Source: Leptolyngbyaceae cyanobacterium M33_DOE_097
Lineage (GTDB): Bacteria; Cyanobacteriota; Cyanobacteriia; Leptolyngbyales; Leptolyngbyaceae
Length of the DNA stretch: 39,852 bases
Assembly (NCBI GenBank): GCA_015296075.1
Contig: DVDV01000238.1
Coordinates: 1-39,852 of the forward strand
Reading direction: 5' to 3'
Positions within the stretch are counted from its first letter, which is position 1. The number at the start of each line of letters is the position of its first letter. The notes under the pieces are model-generated. The model was given only the letters and a program-made list of their open reading frames with translations, was not told the DNA's origin and ran no database searches. This document shows, piece after piece, positions 1 through 11,959 of the stretch. A program made the translations under genes and the position numbers.

Positions 1-92
1 CCGCATTCCACCTTCTTAGTTCTGTCAGCCAACCAGGTAGGAATAGTTATAAACTTGAGTCCAAACAGAACTCTATCGCAAATCTACTTTTT

Positions 93-1070
93 ATGAATGA
101 CTACCAGGGTAATAAACATATATTTTCAAGGTTACAAGGAATTCAGAAAATGCTGATGGCTGCATATGAATCTAATAACTTAGCCAGTACTTACACAATG
201 GGTAAAGAGCGGGAAACTTTCATAAATCTCTTTCTTTCCAATGTTTTACCAAGACAGTTTCGTTTTGGTTCAGGTGAGATTACAGATATTGGTGGAAACT
301 TAAGTGGACAAGTAGACATTGTAATTGAATACTCAATCTTTCCAAGCCTCCAATTACCAGGTGCGGGGCTTGAAACAAGACTTTACTTAGCAGAAGGTGT
401 TGCCGCTGCCTTTGAGGTTAAATCTAATCTTGCCGAGAAATGGGAAGATGTTAAGAAAGCAGCTCAAAAAATCAAGAGATTAAAACGTAGATTTGGAGGC
501 TCAATGGGTTTGCCTCCGCCTTTTATACCAGTTATTGCGGTAGGCTATACGGGCTGGTCTACTATGAATACCCTTAAGGGAAAAATTGAAGAGGGATTTG
601 AACTTGAAGGAATAGAAGAAAAATATGTAGATGGAATTCTCATTATAGATAAGGGTCTGTTTGTCTGGAGACAAAATATGTTTTCTATCCCCCAAATTAG
701 TCATGCGTTCGAGGGCCCTCAAGCACTATGGGGCTTAATCTCAGCATTACACTTATTAGCAAAATCCCTTCAATCTTCAAGTCTAGATATTGCATTTTAT
801 GGGAGTCCAGAGTTAGCTATTTTAGGAGGATTGTGTAGCTGGGTTAACGGCGATTTTACTGAAGAAATCAACTTCAATAACTTCGCTAGAAGAGCCCATT
901 TAGATAAACAAGAACAAGAAAGGATTATTTCTATTTTGCAAGAGAAAGGGCTAATTCAGATCGTTTCTAATGAAATACAGACTGAAGGAGAGGAGAGAAT
1001 TCTGAAAATCAAAATCATTGAAAATGATGAAACTAAAGGTGCAAGTCAGTATTTTAGTGCAATAGTTTGA
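93..1070 (+). CDS. DUF6602 family protein with PD-(D/E)XK-like signature
   Basis: 325 aa. The N-terminal part has the layout of DUF6602 proteins: a helix with Glu40 (GKERETFINLF), then D75 in GQVDIVIEY, then E108-V-K110 in AAFEVKS. This E...D...ExK arrangement resembles the active site of the PD-(D/E)XK nuclease fold, so a nucleic-acid-cleaving or nuclease-derived role is an inference, not shown. The last 90 residues look like a small helix-rich, winged-helix-like domain. There is no signal peptide or membrane segment, so it is probably cytoplasmic. The ATG at 93 has no clear Shine-Dalgarno sequence. The gene stands alone in AT-rich DNA about 2 kb inside the tRNA-Gly scar, so it is likely cargo of an integrated element. 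Substrate and partners are unknown. Confidence 0.75.
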   Translation: MNDYQGNKHIFSRLQGIQKMLMAAYESNNLASTYTMGKERETFINLFLSNVLPRQFRFGSGEITDIGGNLSGQVDIVIEYSIFPSLQLPGAGLETRLYLAEGVAAAFEVKSNLAEKWEDVKKAAQKIKRLKRRFGGSMGLPPPFIPVIAVGYTGWSTMNTLKGKIEEGFELEGIEEKYVDGILIIDKGLFVWRQNMFSIPQISHAFEGPQALWGLISALHLLAKSLQSSSLDIAFYGSPELAILGGLCSWVNGDFTEEINFNNFARRAHLDKQEQERIISILQEKGLIQIVSNEIQTEGEERILKIKIIENDETKGASQYFSAIV

Positions 1071-1226
1071 AAAATGTCTTATTACTCTGCAGATTTATTT
1101 AGGTTTACTTACTGAACTGAAAGACTGCTGCTAATTTTCTTTCCTTCAAATATTTTGAAAAGATTATTCTGATTGCAATCATGCTCACACACACATCTTA
1201 AAAGCCAAAATCTTTCCCAAAGTTTA

Positions 1227-1487
1227 TCATTTGGCTCTAAATGAAGCTTTTAAGCTCAGTTTCTGAGCCTCTTTGTAATCAATGAATGAACCATGCGAAT
1301 AATAGAAATTTCTAGTGGAAATACGCTCAACTATACTTTCTATAGCCCTATCATCAGCTTCAGGAAACATACGCTCCTTTAGAGCTGTTTTAGCAAGTTT
1401 TTGGGTTTGCTTAATAGCTTGGTCTGCAATCTGACGCAGAATATTATGCCACCTCTGTCTTCTACACTGTGACAGATTTTTCTTGGA
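1227..1487 (-). pseudogene. Decayed 3' end of a protein gene (86 codons, no start)
   Basis: On the minus strand 86 codons stay open between an in-frame TAG (1488-1490) and a TGA (1227-1229), with no plausible start codon until an internal Met at residue 40. The composition is protein-like: a helical RWHNILRQIADQAIKQTQK stretch, then ERM, then YYSHGSFIDYKEAQKLSL. The pattern of Glu-Arg-Met, Ser-His-Gly and Lys-Glu-Ala-Gln resembles the C-terminal helices of Clp-fold serine proteases of the serine-dehydrogenase-proteinase type. That match is from memory and weak. I read it as the 3' remnant of a gene whose 5' part is gone, consistent with decay inside a mobile island. Confidence 0.4.
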
Positions 1488-1534
1488 CTAAACTTAAGAC
1501 TTCTAATTATGTCTTGTGGAGCGTCTACTCCATT

Positions 1535-1569
1535 ATCAAATACCCGGTAGTGTTAACCGGGTATTTGAT
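1535..1569 (-). terminator. 14-bp perfect hairpin, likely terminator of the 1594-1839 gene
   Basis: Arms 1535-1548 (ATCAAATACCCGGT) and 1556-1569 are perfect reverse complements around a 7-nt loop. The hairpin lies 25 bases beyond the stop codon of the minus-strand gene. There is no long T tract outside the stem, only the ATTTGAT that is part of the stem, so termination is inferred from position and stem strength. Confidence 0.45.
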
Positions 1570-1593
1570 GAATTCACCTTATCTAATGAGCTA

Positions 1594-1839
1594 CTAAACC
1601 AAACTTACATGCTTTGTAAGAATCCGCATAACTTCACCAGGATTGACTGTAGGAAGCTGTCTAGACCATTCATCTGGTCTAGCGTATCCGTAGTGAAACA
1701 GGGTCATCACAAAGAACTGCACTACTTGAGGACTGCCGATCGCAATGACTCGCAGCATATCAGGAGCAGGGCGATCGCGTAAGTCGATTAGAAGCTGCTC
1801 CGAAGGAATAGTTGTTTGACAACTTATGTTTTCTGTCAT
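1594..1839 (-). CDS. Small conserved cyanobacterial hypothetical protein
   Basis: 81 aa. The core RPAPDMLRVIAIGSPQVVQFF, then the region through EWSRQLPTVNPGEVMRILTKH, is of a type I recognise from small cyanobacterial proteins of unknown function, in which an LRVIA..G.P.VV.FF segment is followed by W....LPT..PG.VM..L. A GGAG lies 11 bases upstream of the ATG. There is no signal peptide, transmembrane segment or catalytic motif. It is flanked by hairpins on both sides (1535-1569 and 1868-1902), so it is probably a one-gene transcription unit. The plus-strand ORF over the same bases (1516-1782) looks like a shadow. No function can be assigned. Confidence 0.6.
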   Translation of the reverse strand: MTENISCQTTIPSEQLLIDLRDRPAPDMLRVIAIGSPQVVQFFVMTLFHYGYARPDEWSRQLPTVNPGEVMRILTKHVSLV

Positions 1840-1867
1840 TATGTCTTTAACTCCATATCGGGGTTGA

Positions 1868-1902
1868 CCCTGTCCTGTGAGCCTGAGAACTTCTGGACAG
1901 GG
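1868..1902. terminator. Hairpin CCCTGTCC/GGACAGGG followed by T-rich tract
   Basis: Arms 1868-1875 and 1895-1902 form a perfect 8-bp stem with a 19-nt loop, followed on the plus strand by TTTTAGTTTTCT. This looks like a plus-strand terminator, although no convincing plus-strand gene lies just upstream. It also falls in the leader of the minus-strand gene starting at 1839, where the same stem could form in the 5' UTR. Confidence 0.45.
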
Positions 1903-1985
1903 TTTTAGTTTTCTACTGCAAGAGTAACATGGTGTGACTGAGTGTTACACTCTGCGTTACCCAGTTACATACAGAAATTTATAAG

Positions 1986-2192
1986 ATGCTGACGAGTGTT
2001 AAACATTATTCTGACGTGACAACAGACCTTGAACGAATCACTGCCTACGTAGATCCTGAGGTAAAGAAGGGTCTTGAAGAATGGGCGAAGAAAGAGCAGA
2101 GAAGCCTTTCAAATCTGGCGGCTGTTCTACTTACTAATGCCTATCGAAACTATGAAAAGCAACAGAGTCAGAATCACGAGAACTCACAGTAA
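1986..2192 (+). CDS. Ribbon-helix-helix (CopG/Arc-type) protein
   Basis: 68 aa. Residues about 17-52 fit a ribbon-helix-helix fold: a beta strand (ERITAYVDPEVKKGL), helix A, a turn (KEQRSLSNLAAVLL) and helix B ending in AYRNYEKQ. Such proteins dimerise and bind DNA with the strand, usually repressing their own gene or acting as the antitoxin half of a toxin-antitoxin pair. No toxin-like ORF follows: the next gene starts 213 bases on and encodes a secreted protein. This is therefore an orphan RHH protein, plausibly a regulator carried by the island. No Shine-Dalgarno sequence is visible before the ATG. Confidence 0.7.
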   Translation: MLTSVKHYSDVTTDLERITAYVDPEVKKGLEEWAKKEQRSLSNLAAVLLTNAYRNYEKQQSQNHENSQ

Positions 2193-2405
2193 AGAAATAT
2201 ACCGATCGCCTTAGCATACCCAAGTTATTAAAAACTCAAGTCCGTTTACTAGCACCATTTTGATTACTGTGCTAAGTAGAGTAGTGACCTTAAAAAAGGT
2301 GTGCAGAAGATAATTCTCTGAAGTAACCGGAAAATACAAAATTCTCTAGAAAAATATTCAAAGGGTGGCTATCGATACATTAACAACTGTGTAAACCGAA
2401 AAGCC

Positions 2406-2843
2406 ATGTGGGTAAAACTTATTAGAATTAGCCTCGCTCCAATTCTGCTCTTAGGCTTTGCGCCTGTATCTGCTCAAGAAATTAATTACATCTGTTTTAT
2501 TCAAAGGGCAAACGGTAGGGTTATAAACCTTACAAAGCTTTGTGAACGAAAAGTGGCTGTGCAACCTTCTATTCAACAGCCTCAAAAACCACAGCTAAGT
2601 GAAAAGGAGCTTAAAAAAGCTCTCGAACTTGTTGGAACTGCCTATGCAGACTCTTACTGTGAAGCAAGAGCGCAAGGAAAAACTCACCGTCAAGCGTCAA
2701 ATGATGCAAGCTCGGTTGCTGCTGAATATTTTGTGCGTACTGGTATCCCAGACGACAAGTTAGATGTTGAGTGGTTCCAAAATGCCAATGAAAAGAGTAA
2801 GCTGTTATGCCCTGAGCTTCAACCAAAGGGACGTTACACATAA
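2406..2843 (+). CDS. Small secreted hypothetical protein
   Basis: 145 aa. A signal peptide is clear: WVKLIR, a hydrophobic stretch to about residue 20, then APVSAQ as the likely cleavage site. The mature N-terminus has the YICFIQRANGRVINLTKLC motif (two Cys and a R-V-I-N-L-T segment) that recurs in short exported cyanobacterial proteins of unknown function. A Gln/Pro-rich linker follows (about residues 55-65), then an alpha-helical domain with two further Cys (SYCEARAQG and KLLCPEL). It is likely periplasmic with possible disulfides. It is the last gene before the tRNA-Gly scar. Confidence 0.65.
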   Translation: MWVKLIRISLAPILLLGFAPVSAQEINYICFIQRANGRVINLTKLCERKVAVQPSIQQPQKPQLSEKELKKALELVGTAYADSYCEARAQGKTHRQASNDASSVAAEYFVRTGIPDDKLDVEWFQNANEKSKLLCPELQPKGRYT

Positions 2844-2911
2844 AGAGGGCTTTAGGCTGCTATCTCTTTTGGGCAGTTTTCAATGTAGCTATTGATCGTA
2901 AATTGGATGAA

Positions 2912-2944
2912 CATCTCTATCTCTTCTTATATGAAGAGGAGATG
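2912..2944 (+). other. Bulged hairpin downstream of the secreted-protein gene
   Basis: CATCTC plus CTCTTC (2912-2917, 2921-2926) pairs with GAAGAG plus GAGATG (2933-2944) around the loop TTATAT, leaving a 3-nt bulge. It lies 69 bases after the stop at 2843. There is no T tract, so a terminator role is only possible. Confidence 0.3.
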
Positions 2945-2955
2945 AAGCAAAAGAT

Positions 2956-2976
2956 TTTGGGTGTAATTTGGGTGTA
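2956..2976 (+). repeat. Tandem 10-bp direct repeat TTTGGGTGTA next to the tRNA scar
   Basis: TTTGGGTGTA occurs at 2956-2965 and again at 2967-2976, a period of 11 bases (about one helical turn). The repeat lies 47 bases from the tRNA-Gly fragment. Short direct repeats beside an attachment core are typical binding sites for tyrosine recombinases or their accessory proteins. That role is inferred from position and phasing. Confidence 0.5.
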
Positions 2977-3022
2977 GAAAATCTCTCTATTCTCTAAAAC
3001 CCCTTCCCTGATTGAGTTGTGT

Positions 3023-3068
3023 TTAGCCTTCCAAGCTATTGATCCGGGTTCGATTCCCGGTGCCCGCT
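3023..3068 (+). other. 3' half of a tRNA-Gly(UCC) gene; probable attachment-site scar
   Basis: The stretch reads as the 3' part of a tRNA from the anticodon stem on. It has anticodon loop CTTCCAA (3028-3034, anticodon UCC), a 5-nt stem half GCTAT, a 4-nt variable loop, T stem-loop CCGGG-TTCGATT-CCCGG (3044-3060), acceptor strand TGCCCGC (3061-3067) and discriminator T3068. Only four of five bases pair in the anticodon stem, and nothing upstream provides the D arm or the GCGGGCA 5' acceptor strand. It is therefore not a functional tRNA. Partial 3' tRNA copies of this kind are left at the far end of elements that integrate into tRNA genes. The intact copy should lie upstream of base 1 in the same orientation. 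Confidence 0.8.
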
Positions 3069-3240
3069 TTGAAAGTCTACATCTGTACCGAGTAGCTGTG
3101 AGTAGCTGGAAAAGAGCTATTTAGCAAGGCTTTAGATGAATTAGGACAAATGGCTGAGAAGATTCGGTCACCTCGCGAATCTTGAAACTCCCCTCTATTT
3201 TCTAAGGTGGAGAAATAATAGCCAGCGTGGAGCTTCTGCC

Positions 3241-3588
3241 ATGGATAGGATTAAGCGCCAGTGTTCATTGTCGAGCAGCTTACTTGTGGATTTTTATCAC
3301 GGCTGGATGATTGAAGTAAAAGCGGGTCAGCCCGATTCTTACCGCTACCAATGCACTTCTTCAAATGGAACCAGTCTCAATAGCGTAATTTTGTACAGTC
3401 AAGCTCCACAAGCGCATCAAGCCGCAATCGAAGTAATTGCATTATTTGAAGCATGTGTTGCTCTTAAAAACTGGCTAAGGGCAGCCTTTGAAGCAGGTTT
3501 GGTCGCTGAACATGAGTGGTATACCCTAACCCAATCCTTAAATGTTGCAGCAGGTCATCATCCCTCAGCGCAGACTGGCAAAGACTAG
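3241..3588 (+). CDS. Conserved cyanobacterial hypothetical protein
   Basis: 115 aa, soluble, with no signal peptide. The core runs VDFYHGWMIEVKAGQPDSYRYQCTSSNG, then SQAPQAHQAAIEVIALFEA, then a helical tail ending SLNVAAGHH. I do not recognise a named domain. A short beta-rich segment (HGWMIEV, YRYQC) is followed by helices and it has the look of a small conserved cyanobacterial protein. It starts at an ATG 172 bases beyond the tRNA-Gly scar, so it is probably the first backbone gene after the island. Confidence 0.55.
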   Translation: MDRIKRQCSLSSSLLVDFYHGWMIEVKAGQPDSYRYQCTSSNGTSLNSVILYSQAPQAHQAAIEVIALFEACVALKNWLRAAFEAGLVAEHEWYTLTQSLNVAAGHHPSAQTGKD

Positions 3589-3764
3589 TAGTTCACCCAA
3601 AGAACGTTGCAGGGTTGAAATGGCTGAGCTGTTGGTCATTCGTTTTCTCTACTTGGCAAAGTTGGCTTGGCAGACCACTAGGGATGTAAGCAGGTGCCCA
3701 AGCTAAAGAACGTGGATGATGAGAATTCAAATTTTCTTGGCAAGGGGAACATGAGTAACTGGAG

Positions 3765-3860
3765 TTTGGACTAATTCAAAAAATACACCATATTTAGGAG
3801 GGGCGAACAGCTGTTCGCCCTTACATATAGTGGAAAATCGCGTTTAGTCTAAAGTCCAAA
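3765..3860. mobile_element. MITE-like element with TTTGGACT ends and a palindromic core
   Basis: TTTGGACT (3765-3772) and its reverse complement AGTCCAAA (3853-3860) bound a 96-bp stretch centred on the perfect 20-bp palindrome GGGCGAACAGCTGTTCGCCC (3801-3820). Between ends and core the two halves are also roughly complementary, so the whole unit can fold into one long imperfect hairpin. ATGAGTAA occurs at 3751-3758 and 3860-3867, possibly a target duplication, although the left copy is 6 bases from the terminal repeat. There is no coding capacity. The core design matches the unit at 37845-37945. Confidence 0.55.
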
Positions 3861-3981
3861 TGAGTAAGGTTGATGTAGAAAATCCCTGACAAAGATTAAA
3901 TTTGTAACAAAAACTACAGTTTATTTTTAATTGTCTGAAAATAGAGGTAGAAACCATATTGAGCCTTTAGGAAGAAAGACA

Positions 3982-4116
3982 ATGACAAGTAAACGAGAAA
4001 CCATCATCCGCGAGTTACGACACCAGCTTTACTACACTAACCCTGGTCCTGAGCGGGAAGCGGTTCGGCAACGGCTTGATTTTTGGATCCACCACTATCG
4101 CCCTGACACAAAGTAA
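3982..4116 (+). CDS. 44-residue hypothetical protein
   Basis: The frame is open from a TTG at 3931, but ATG 3982 with AGGAAGAAAG just upstream is the better start, giving 44 aa: MTSKRETIIRELRHQ, then YYTNPGPEREAVRQRLDFW and a basic tail. It is strongly charged, probably helical and cytoplasmic. I do not recognise a family. The only support is codon-like composition, the ribosome-binding site and the well-placed terminator hairpin after it, so it could still be a chance ORF. Confidence 0.4.
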   Translation: MTSKRETIIRELRHQLYYTNPGPEREAVRQRLDFWIHHYRPDTK

Positions 4117-4159
4117 TGCCCGTTCAAGCGAATGGCTTATTTCTGTTTGACTCTCCCTT

Positions 4160-4218
4160 AATCCCCCTGATGTCTTGCAAAGTGGCAAATGCCTAAAATA
4201 TGCAGAGTCAGGGGGATT
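4160..4218. terminator. Long-range inverted repeat between convergent genes
   Basis: AATCCCCCTGA (4160-4170) and TCAGGGGGATT (4208-4218) are perfect 11-bp complements separated by 37 bases, with TTTT at the right end and TTAA at the left. The pair lies between the convergent small ORF and eda and could stop transcription from either side. The loop is longer than in classical terminators. Confidence 0.45.
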
Positions 4219-4283
4219 TTGATGGATAGCCCGTCAGGGCAACGGGAGTTATCCCTTTAGTAGCGTTTCGTAGTAACGCCTTA

Positions 4284-4952
4284 CTATGAGTTTGCCCGAT
4301 CGCCCACCTTGCCAAGAAATGGCTGCAAGTGCTGTTGCAAGCGGATAGCTTGTTGAGTGATCGCATCCCAGTTACCACTAGCCAGTGCCGCCTTTGGAAA
4401 GAGTTCTCCGGCAAGACCAACCGCGATCGCGCCTGCCTTTAAGAAGTCACTTGCATTGGCCAGCGTCACACCTCCTGTAGGGATGAGGGGAATTTGTCCG
4501 AGTGGGCCTTGGAGACTGCGAATATAGGCCGCCCCTCCCACCGCTTGAGCCGGAAAGATTTTGACACAAGTAGCCCCAGCTTGCCAGGCTGCCACAATTT
4601 CGCTGGGAGTGAGGGCCCCCGCTACGATGGGCGTCTCTGCTGTCACAGCCTTTTGAATCAATTTGGATGAGGTGTGCGGTGTAAATAGGTACTGTGCCCC
4701 GGCAGCGATCGCAGCTTCGAGTTGTTCGATGGTTAGCAACGTGCCTGCTCCAATCACGCAGTGAGGCAGCTCTGACCGCAATTTTGAGATCAGGTCGGCT
4801 GGGCGATCGCTATTCCAGGTAATTTCAATTAACGGCATGCCAGCCTGGGCGATCGCGTGGGCCATGTGATAACCGAGGGCAATGTCATCAGCGCGAATCA
4901 CTGCGATCGCTCGGTGTTGTCGAAGTAAAGAAAGCCAGGTTTCAGGAGACAT
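4284..4952 (-). CDS. eda: KDPG/KHG aldolase (2-dehydro-3-deoxyphosphogluconate aldolase)
   Basis: 222 aa from ATG 4952, which has GGAG seven bases upstream; the frame also extends to a TTG at 4976, less likely. Class I aldolase TIM barrel: AIAVIRADD at strand 1, LIEITWNS (catalytic Glu region), VIGAGTLLT, YLFTPHTS, TPIVAGALTPSEI, CVKIFPAQAVGG with the Schiff-base Lys, and IPTGGVT phosphate loop. It cleaves 2-keto-3-deoxy-6-phosphogluconate to pyruvate and glyceraldehyde 3-phosphate in the Entner-Doudoroff route and can act on 4-hydroxy-2-oxoglutarate. The gene follows ftsH on the same strand, but a strong terminator lies between them, so eda probably has its own promoter or depends on read-through. 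Confidence 0.9.
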   Translation of the reverse strand: MSPETWLSLLRQHRAIAVIRADDIALGYHMAHAIAQAGMPLIEITWNSDRPADLISKLRSELPHCVIGAGTLLTIEQLEAAIAAGAQYLFTPHTSSKLIQKAVTAETPIVAGALTPSEIVAAWQAGATCVKIFPAQAVGGAAYIRSLQGPLGQIPLIPTGGVTLANASDFLKAGAIAVGLAGELFPKAALASGNWDAITQQAIRLQQHLQPFLGKVGDRANS

Positions 4953-4983
4953 CGGTTTGCTCCGATTTAAAGACAAAAAAATA

Positions 4984-5028: not shown

Positions 5029-6867
5029 TTAGGCAATTGCCGCAATCTTGACATCACTATTTGCGAGTAGCTCTTGCAGCTCGTCAGCATCTACTGTCTC
5101 TTTCTCGATCAGCATTTCAGCCAAGCGATCTAAGATAGCGCGGTTTTCAGTCAGCACCGCCTTAGCACGACGGTAGGCTTGCTCAACCAGATTGCGAACT
5201 TCGTCATCAATTGCCGAAGCCGTTTCTTCAGAGAAGTCACGCTCAGAAGCGATGTCACGACCTAAGAACATGTTGCCTTGCTGACGACCTAACGCAACAG
5301 GGCCGAGGCGGTCGCTCATACCAAAGCGAGTCACCATCTGACGCGCAACCCGTGCAACTTGCTGCAAGTCGTTAGAAGCACCTGTAGTCACTTCTTCATC
5401 ACCAAAGATAATTTCTTCAGCAATTCGACCACCGAGGGCAACCGCCATCTGGTTTTGCAGGTAAGAGCGCGAATACAGGCCCGAATCCATCCGGTCTTCA
5501 CTTGGAGTAAACCAGGTCAAACCACCAGCCCGTCCACGAGGAATGATGCTGATCTTTTGAACGGGGTCATAGTCAGGCATCAAAGCACCGACAAGCGCGT
5601 GTCCGGCTTCGTGGTAAGCCACGAGTTCTTTCCGCTTTTCGCTCATCACCCGATCTTTCTTCTCAGGCCCTGCCAACACGCGATCAATTGCGTCATTGAC
5701 TTCATCCATCGAGATTTCAGTCAAGTTACGACGAGCCGCCAAAATTGCTGCTTCGTTCAACAAGTTTGACAGGTCTGCTCCGGTGAAACCGGGAGTCCGA
5801 CGGGCGATTTTCTCAAGATCCACATCTTGCGACAAGGTTTTGCCACGCGCGTGGACATTCAGAATCTCTAAACGACCGCTAAAGTCAGGGCGATCGACAA
5901 CCACTTGACGGTCAAAACGACCGGGACGCAGCAATGCCGCATCTAGTACATCAGGACGGTTCGTTGCCGCAATGATGATGATGCCAGTGTTGCCTTCAAA
6001 CCCGTCCATTTCGGTGAGTAACTGGTTGAGGGTTTGCTCACGCTCATCATTACCGCCACCCAGTCCGGCACCACGCTGACGGCCAACGGCGTCAATTTCA
6101 TCGATAAAGACGATACAAGGTGCGTTTGCCTTTGCTTGTTCAAATAGGTCACGGACGCGAGAAGCACCGACCCCAACAAACATTTCGACAAACTCAGAAC
6201 CAGAGATCGAGAAGAAAGGAACGCCTGCTTCACCTGCCACAGCCCGTGCCAACAGAGTTTTACCAGTCCCCGGAGGGCCAACCAGCAAAACACCCTTGGG
6301 AATTTTGGCTCCAACCGCAGTAAAGCGATCCGCATTCTTCAGGAAGTCAACCACCTCAGCTAACTCCAGCTTTGCCTGCTCAATACCAGCGACATCGCCG
6401 AACGTAACTTGGGTTTGAGGCTCCATTTGTACCCGTGCCCGCGACTTGCCAAAGTTCATTGCCTGACTACCAGGACCACTCTGCGCTCGTCTTAGGAGGA
6501 AGAACAACCCGACTAACAGCAGGACGGGAAATAGCAACCCGCTAAATGCACGCACCCAAGCGCCATCATCTGTTTGAGGAGAGACAGAAATATCAACTCC
6601 TTTGCGGGTCAAGATGTTGATCAGCTCAGTGTCGCTAGGTAAGACGTTCACTGTTATCATCTTGCCTGCCTCTGGCACGCGAATCTCGGTGCGAGAGGCG
6701 TTCATCTGAACTTTCTCGATTTTGCCGCTTTCGACTCTTTCAAGAAATTCTGAGTAAGTCAGCTCTTCACGAGCCGTTGGCTTACCATCAATCAACGCTG
6801 TTGCCAATGAAAGGGCAACAATTGCCAACAGCGCATATAATCCAACATTTCTCCACCGCTTATTCAC
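5029..6867 (-). CDS. ftsH: ATP-dependent zinc metalloprotease FtsH (FtsH3/Slr1604 type)
   Basis: 612 aa, GTG start with AGGAGG nine bases upstream. Two transmembrane segments (about residues 8-25 and 108-125) flank a lumenal or periplasmic domain. Then come the AAA+ module, with Walker A GPPGTGKT (197-204), Walker B IVFIDEID (252-259) and second region of homology [19 protein letters not shown], and the M41 protease with zinc motif HEAGH (419-423). The N-terminus ([13 protein letters not shown]) and full-length match point to the FtsH3 group of cyanobacteria. FtsH3 is known to pair with FtsH1 or FtsH2 homologues. Known roles include degradation of damaged membrane proteins, photosystem II D1 repair and regulator turnover. 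It appears monocistronic, with its own terminator at 4984-5002. Confidence 0.95.
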
Positions 6868-11067: not shown

Positions 11068-11838
11068 ATGACTCTGCAACAACTCCGCCAAATGAAACAA
11101 CAGGGACGGACGATCACTGTCCTCACTGCGTGGGATTATGCGATCGCCCGTCTCATTGATGCCGCTGGAGTTGATCTGATTTTGATTGGTGATTCTCTGG
11201 CGATGGTGGCATTGGGGCACCGCACAACCTTGCCTATCACCCTGGATGAGATGATTCACCACGCGAAAGCCGTCTGCCGGGGAGTTGAGCGATCGCTGTT
11301 GGTCTGTGACTTGCCGTTTATGTCTTATCAGGAAAGTATTCAACAGGCATTGCACACAGCAGGTAGGGTCTTAAAAGAAACCAATGTGCAAGCGGTCAAG
11401 TTAGAAGGGGGGCACCCCGCAGCGGTTGAAACGGTGGCTCACCTCGTGCAAGCGGGCATTCCAGTCATGGCGCATATTGGCTTAACGCCGCAGTCGGTGC
11501 ATCGCTTGGGCTACCGGCAACAGGGCAAGACGCCAGAGGCAGCAGAGCGTCTCGTGCAAGAGGCGATCGCGCTAGAAGCAGCAGGTGCTTTCAGCATTGT
11601 TTTAGAGCATATTCCAGCCGATCTTGCCCTGCAAATCACCCAAAAGCTGACGATTCCAACCATCGGCATTGGCGCTGGCCCCTACTGTGACGGGCAGGTG
11701 TTGGTCACGGCTGATCTGCTGGGCTTGTCAGAACGCCAACCCCCTTTTTCAAAACGTTACGCTGACTTGCAAGGAATTGTGACGCAGGCGATCCAGACGT
11801 ACTGTACTGAGGTAAAAGAGGGAAAATTCCCTTTGTAA
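11068..11838 (+). CDS. panB: 3-methyl-2-oxobutanoate hydroxymethyltransferase
   Basis: 256 aa, the full family length. It transfers a hydroxymethyl group from 5,10-methylene-tetrahydrofolate to 2-oxoisovalerate to give ketopantoate, the first committed step to pantothenate and CoA. Visible motifs are the metal-binding IGDSLAMV (D42), CDLPFMSY (D81), KLEGG (E113), [10 protein letters not shown] and the catalytic Glu180 in [11 protein letters not shown], with [18 protein letters not shown] near the C-terminus. The ATG has no strong Shine-Dalgarno sequence. It follows the propeller gene by 158 bases, with no sign of a shared operon. Confidence 0.95.
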
Positions 11839-11959
11839 GCAGTTAAGCTGCATCTGATTTGTTAGGGGCTTGGGGTTGGTTAGAAATGAGAATCCCCTGC
11901 TGATTTGTGCAGTTTTTTGGGCTTACTAATGAACAAACGTCTTAAGAGCGCGATCGCCC

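Follow-up and report, generated by a model that had tools for sequence, protein, structure and literature searches.

A probable right-hand attachment site of an integrative island in a tRNA-Gly(UCC) gene of a Leptolyngbya-like cyanobacterium

Analysis of a 39,852-bp stretch of DNA (the window), which is one entire contig (C69) of a draft genome of 6.96 Mb in 437 contigs, indicates with high confidence that positions 3024-3070 are the attR core of an integrative genomic island, inserted in what appears to be the only tRNA-Gly(UCC) gene of a Leptolyngbya-like cyanobacterium. The evidence in hand consists of a duplicated core, an intact tRNA gene, an integrase, repeats shared by the two ends, and closed elements of like anatomy in relatives. 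From these we infer the order of recombination, the binding of the repeats and the current mobility of the island.

The displaced tRNA fragment and its surroundings

The core is a 47-bp sequence on the + strand (TAGCCTTCCAAGCTATTGATCCGGGTTCGATTCCCGGTGCCCGCTTT) that comprises the 3' part of tRNA-Gly(UCC), with the tRNA running through 3068, plus TT. Its 5' limit is the second base pair of the anticodon stem, and it contains in order most of the anticodon arm (anticodon TCC at 3030-3032), the variable loop, the T arm, the 3' acceptor strand, the discriminator T (3068) and two more bases. The sole other exact copy in the genome is on contig C22 (1492-1538, minus strand, 47/47 identity, E 9e-18), where ARAGORN finds a complete tRNA-Gly(UCC) at 1494-1564, and the sequences diverge immediately at either side of the core. 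The next close match is tRNA-Gly(CCC) on C45 (83%). As no further near-identical copy was found in the genome, the tRNA-Gly(UCC) gene appears to be single-copy, and by this comparison that of C22 appears to be the only gene of its kind. ARAGORN made no tRNA call in the window. With the Rfam tRNA model, 3013-3060 scored 18 bits against a gathering score of 29, in a match that begins in the anticodon arm. ARAGORN, Rfam and the comparison within the genome thus confirm the original prediction, made from the letters of the window, of a 3' half of tRNA-Gly(UCC) on the + strand without a 5' half, although the limits it gave (3023-3068) need shifting to the span of identity with the intact gene, 3024-3070.

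A step in base composition coincides with the tRNA fragment: G+C is 0.39 in 38-3070, whereas 3-kb windows to the right average 0.494 and do not fall below 0.423. The region at 38-3023 (+), which is bounded on its right by the att core and carries the putative attR arm repeats, can be read as the attR-proximal (right-hand) end of the integrated element. It had been described as sparse and AT-rich, and its richness in AT is borne out; its sparseness is only partly so, since 93-2843 holds four plausible genes. A cargo gene at 93-1070 (+) encodes a DUF6602/NucC-like PD-(D/E)XK nuclease of 325 aa (Pfam DUF6602 2e-18; PADLOC PD_DExK 6.8e-20, NucC 1.4e-11), and the genes upstream of it are cut off by the end of the contig. 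It is followed by an 81-aa protein with no family assigned (1597-1839, minus strand), a ribbon-helix-helix (CopG/Arc-like) DNA-binding protein of 68 aa (1986-2192, +; Pfam RHH_5 4.2e-9, PHROG Arc-like repressor 7.2e-8), and an open reading frame for a small protein of 145 aa with a signal-peptide-like N terminus (2406-2843, +), which has a weak homologue in the closed element of genome G015 (phmmer 2.4e-4). The 81-aa protein has homologues in Scytolyngbya (G013), next to the attR fragment, and in G015, within the closed tRNA-Thr element. There are up to nine relatives of this protein per genome (for example in G068, 46-51% identical), and in G006 (L114) a homologue, with no integrase, follows an intact tRNA-Gly at a distance of some 0.7 kb on its 3' side and may be what is left of an island.

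To the right of the core, 3071-4283 presumably is chromosomal flank, with open reading frames and without element features. Beyond it are eda (4284-4976, minus strand) and ftsH (5029-6867, minus strand), the latter 95% identical in a same-genus genome. Cytochrome b6f genes are also among the window's open reading frames, and the gene content is cyanobacterial.

The integrase end and the repeats shared with the window

An intact tRNA-Gly and a tyrosine recombinase had been predicted to the left of the fragment, with the tRNA sharing at least 3028-3068. They could not sit in the window, as it is one complete contig; both are found at the start of C22, a separate contig, where the tRNA shares 3024-3070 with the window and adjoins a recombinase on the same strand. 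The tyrosine recombinase (C22:97-1353, minus strand, 418 codons) has Arm-DNA-bind_2 and Phage_integrase domains (Pfam 1.2e-17 and 1.8e-10) and starts some 0.2 kb beyond the intact tRNA-Gly(UCC) gene, on its 3' side. It is full-length compared with its relatives except at the end, where in the alignment some ten residues read from an insertion sequence (IS) stand in place of the final two. It is the only integrase of its family in the genome at E 1e-40, and its closest named relatives are those of Leptolyngbya and Scytolyngbya.

Lambda-type arm-binding integrases have arm sites placed as repeats flanking the core. Both features of this type are present here: an N-terminal arm domain, and repeats on either side of the core (three plus two) as putative arm sites. 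Between tRNA and integrase on C22, TTGGGTGTA occurs three times in tandem with an 11-bp period; two copies of the same period lie at 2957-2976 (+) of the window, 47 bp left of the tRNA fragment, as putative attR arm-type sites. Searching all 6.96 Mb for TTGGGTGTA-N1-3-TTGGGTGTA returned only C22 (at attL, and once inverted within the integrase gene) and window 2957-2976, and a reversed-pattern control had 0 occurrences genome-wide. At the level of sequence, the shared TTGGGTGTA repeats are an independent second signature linking C22 and the window. With the intact tRNA and the integrase located on C22 and these repeats at both ends, the proposal that an element integrated in tRNA-Gly(UCC) reaches the fragment from beyond the window is supported.

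The two inverted TTGGGTGTA copies within the integrase coding sequence (C22 (L014) 1034-1054) are about 0.3 kb from the putative arm sites, and one inverted copy is also present inside the integrase genes of G018 and G012. They might serve as an additional regulatory or arm site, or simply reflect conserved codons. A further arrangement is seen at locus L103 (G030:C205; 634-757 and 1007-1678), where a tRNA-Gly 3' fragment has TTGGGTGTA repeats on its left and directly after it come TTTGGGGTA repeats and a second, partial integrase. These are apparently tandem islands, and it looks as if the second one had used the attR of the first.

An integrase search of 97 genomes gave matches in 49, and the 31 loci with usable upstream sequence were analysed. 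A complete tRNA (Gly, Val, Arg, Thr, Met, Phe or Lys) is found within 600 bp upstream on the same strand in 27 of the 31, at a median distance of 183 bp. In four relatives the element is closed on one contig, running over 4.0-18.3 kb from a full tRNA with integrase to a 3' tRNA fragment: G015 (tRNA-Thr(UGU), 18.3 kb, TTGGGTGTA repeats at both ends), G051 (tRNA-Thr(UGU), 14.8 kb, TTTGGGTATC), G041 (tRNA-Thr(CGU), 13.5 kb, ACTGTGATAAA) and G020 (tRNA-Gly(UCC), 4.0 kb, TTTGAGTACG), the repeats of the last three also being at both ends. The 3' fragments of the closed elements start at the anticodon arm, or slightly earlier in G020. The Scytolyngbya (G013) island, with TTTGGGGTA repeats, is also split across contigs. 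In G015, G051, G041, G020 and G013 the tandem repeat seen at the tRNA/integrase end is present again immediately to the left of the fragment. Across six elements each attL motif fits its own attR best, and only two of the 720 possible pairings reach the observed fit; the tie is a swap between the present genome (G000) and G015, due to the one motif that they have in common.

Across the family, 30 of 31 loci have a tandem 9-mer pair (at least 8/9 alike, with a period of 10-12 bp, mostly 11) in the 130 bp before the integrase start, compared with 3.4% of shuffled sequences, and the sequence of the repeat differs between elements. Pairwise, motif similarity tracks how identical the N-terminal arm domains are (Mantel rho 0.61, p 2e-4), and is weakly correlated with identity of the catalytic domains (rho 0.15), and the arm-domain correlation after correction for the catalytic domain is 0.60 (p 2e-4); these figures are correlations on 30 related sequences, with a permutation that models phylogeny incompletely.

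Contig breaks, missing parts and other explanations

C22 and the window remain separate contigs, both broken in multi-copy insertion sequences, in a genome that is unusually rich in them. Positions 1-37 of the window are the terminal part of one such IS, with 37/37 identity to C22:101-137 and to 10 other contig ends. The same IS end closes C22, C406 and the window, and the assembly breaks there. This end is about 137 bp long, of which the window has only 37 bp. No contigs bearing a different end of the IS were found, and this one-ended picture reflects either very long terminal repeats or an effect of assembly. A 38-aa terminal peptide gave no IS family. Joining C22 to the window through a single IS with a target-site duplication was rejected, as the IS end is identical on both and the flanks mismatch. 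Since the same end is on both contigs without matching target duplications, the gap between them is more than one simple IS.

C406 (L185, 11.9 kb) begins with the same IS end and has core genes of the element family. It encodes the C-terminal half of the family's helicase (E 4.7e-152 to that of G051). Its other genes encode a "KSKGP" protein that is also present in other elements, HsdM, HsdS, a DUF3800 protein, a Uma2-type protein and HsdR, the last cut by a second insertion sequence (11740-11887), the end of which is found at about 40 contig ends. A search of the genome with the helicase of G012 returned no match; this search was insensitive here, as direct comparison with C406 then did find a helicase. 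With its DUF3987-type helicase and type I restriction-modification genes, C406 is probably the missing middle of the island.

An empty site was not found, as tRNA-Gly does not adjoin ftsH/eda in the relatives checked; the single same-genus genome has them on different contigs. Linkage of tRNA-Gly to tonB-like/glcD at one flank and to hyp/eda/ftsH at the opposite flank was sought without success, because gene order differs in the relatives.

The ends might be unlinked, if the fragment and the C22 integrase belonged to two different insertions, or if one island was later split by chromosomal rearrangement between insertion sequences. Insertion sequences commonly cause rearrangements; multi-copy IS sequence is at the ends of both contigs, and a second IS is at 40 or more contig ends. 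However, the genome has only one integrase of this family at the threshold above and the arm repeats agree between C22 and the window, which makes this explanation unlikely; a rearrangement would in any case leave the identity of the fragment unchanged. Much less credible still, to the point of being negligible, is a tRNA pseudogene that arose by random duplication or decay without site-specific integration. Partial tRNA genes in prokaryotes do have several origins (PMC9897764), but this copy is exact with sharp limits on both sides, it starts at the anticodon arm and has arm repeats at the attR distance, both as seen in the closed elements, and an integrase adjoins the intact tRNA gene.

The nature of the island is a separate matter, as it could be a prophage rather than a satellite- or defence-type island. 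The integrase has distant likeness to those of cyanophages (34% identity to Planktothrix phage PaV-LD and 31% to Leptolyngbya phage Lsp-JY17). Against this, a scan of IMG/VR for close relatives gave none, the closed elements are 4-18 kb, and Pfam scans, which covered most larger proteins in two of the closed elements and selected ones in a third, found no virion or conjugation proteins, the domains there being helicase, restriction-modification, HNH, Fic, HTH and Uma2. Virion structural genes were likewise absent from the Pfam-scanned proteins of C406 and the window, and it is in this lack among scanned proteins that the present elements differ from PaV-LD. We regard a prophage as very improbable.

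Proposed mechanism, affinities and significance

An integrative island in tRNA-Gly(UCC), the preferred reading, would have formed by recombination at the anticodon arm between the chromosomal tRNA gene and an attP that held the tRNA's 3' part, catalysed by a tyrosine recombinase encoded on the island. This would have restored a complete 3' half to the tRNA gene at the left end (C22) and displaced the gene's former 3' part to the right end of the island, at window 3024-3070. The N-terminal arm domain of the integrase is predicted to bind the tandem TTGGGTGTA copies, three on the left and two on the right, bridging to the core for integration and excision. Several insertion sequences entered the island later, one of them at the very last integrase codons.

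A regenerated gene and a displaced fragment are known to mark the ends of islands in tRNA genes, and 2083 islands with anticodon-centred sites have been counted (PMC4383910). The present island resembles these anticodon-centred tRNA-targeted islands (Islander class A; sublocation A of Williams 2002) in having an intact tRNA and a tyrosine integrase at one end, a displaced 3' fragment at the other, and crossover at the anticodon arm; it does not differ from them in principle, but is split over contigs by insertion sequences. Going by their general description (PMC10872708), the tycheposons of Prochlorococcus and others are similar as cyanobacterial cargo islands of 4-200 kb with a tyrosine recombinase and a tRNA border, whereas their cargo is described as nutrient-related and that of the present island is defence-like. 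The tRNA-Thr(UGU) element of G015, a complete genome of the same family, has the same TTGGGTGTA repeats at both ends, an integrase of 48% identity, and homologues of the 81-aa and 145-aa proteins, but it differs in its target tRNA and its cargo of GmrSD-type and HNH proteins. The islands of Scytolyngbya sp. HA4215-MV1 and Leptolyngbya sp. ULC077bin1 have tRNA-Gly(UCC) as target and integrases that are 76% and 81% identical, respectively, although the former has TTTGGGGTA and not TTGGGTGTA repeats at both ends.

The island type itself is well known, and the new part is the family-wide arm-motif pattern; our literature search found no cyanobacterial description of such elements or their arm repeats. 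Taken together, we see about an even chance that these are a cyanobacterial family of satellite-like, defence-carrying elements (integrase, small HTH protein, DUF3987-type helicase, "KSKGP" protein and cargo) with modular integrases, whose N-terminal arm domain recognises a private 9-bp motif repeated every 11 bp at each end of the element, and with an arm code that changes largely independently of the catalytic domain. If this is true, attL and attR of one element can be paired even across fragmented assemblies, giving a means of matching island ends in fragmented genomes. In the present case, a 47-bp scar read from raw sequence correctly predicted an integrase and an intact tRNA on an unlinked contig. 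The analysis also exposes a cyanobacterial integrase family with many natural arm-motif variants on a common layout, and this opens arm-site recognition by tyrosine integrases to testing through simple swaps of domains or sites.
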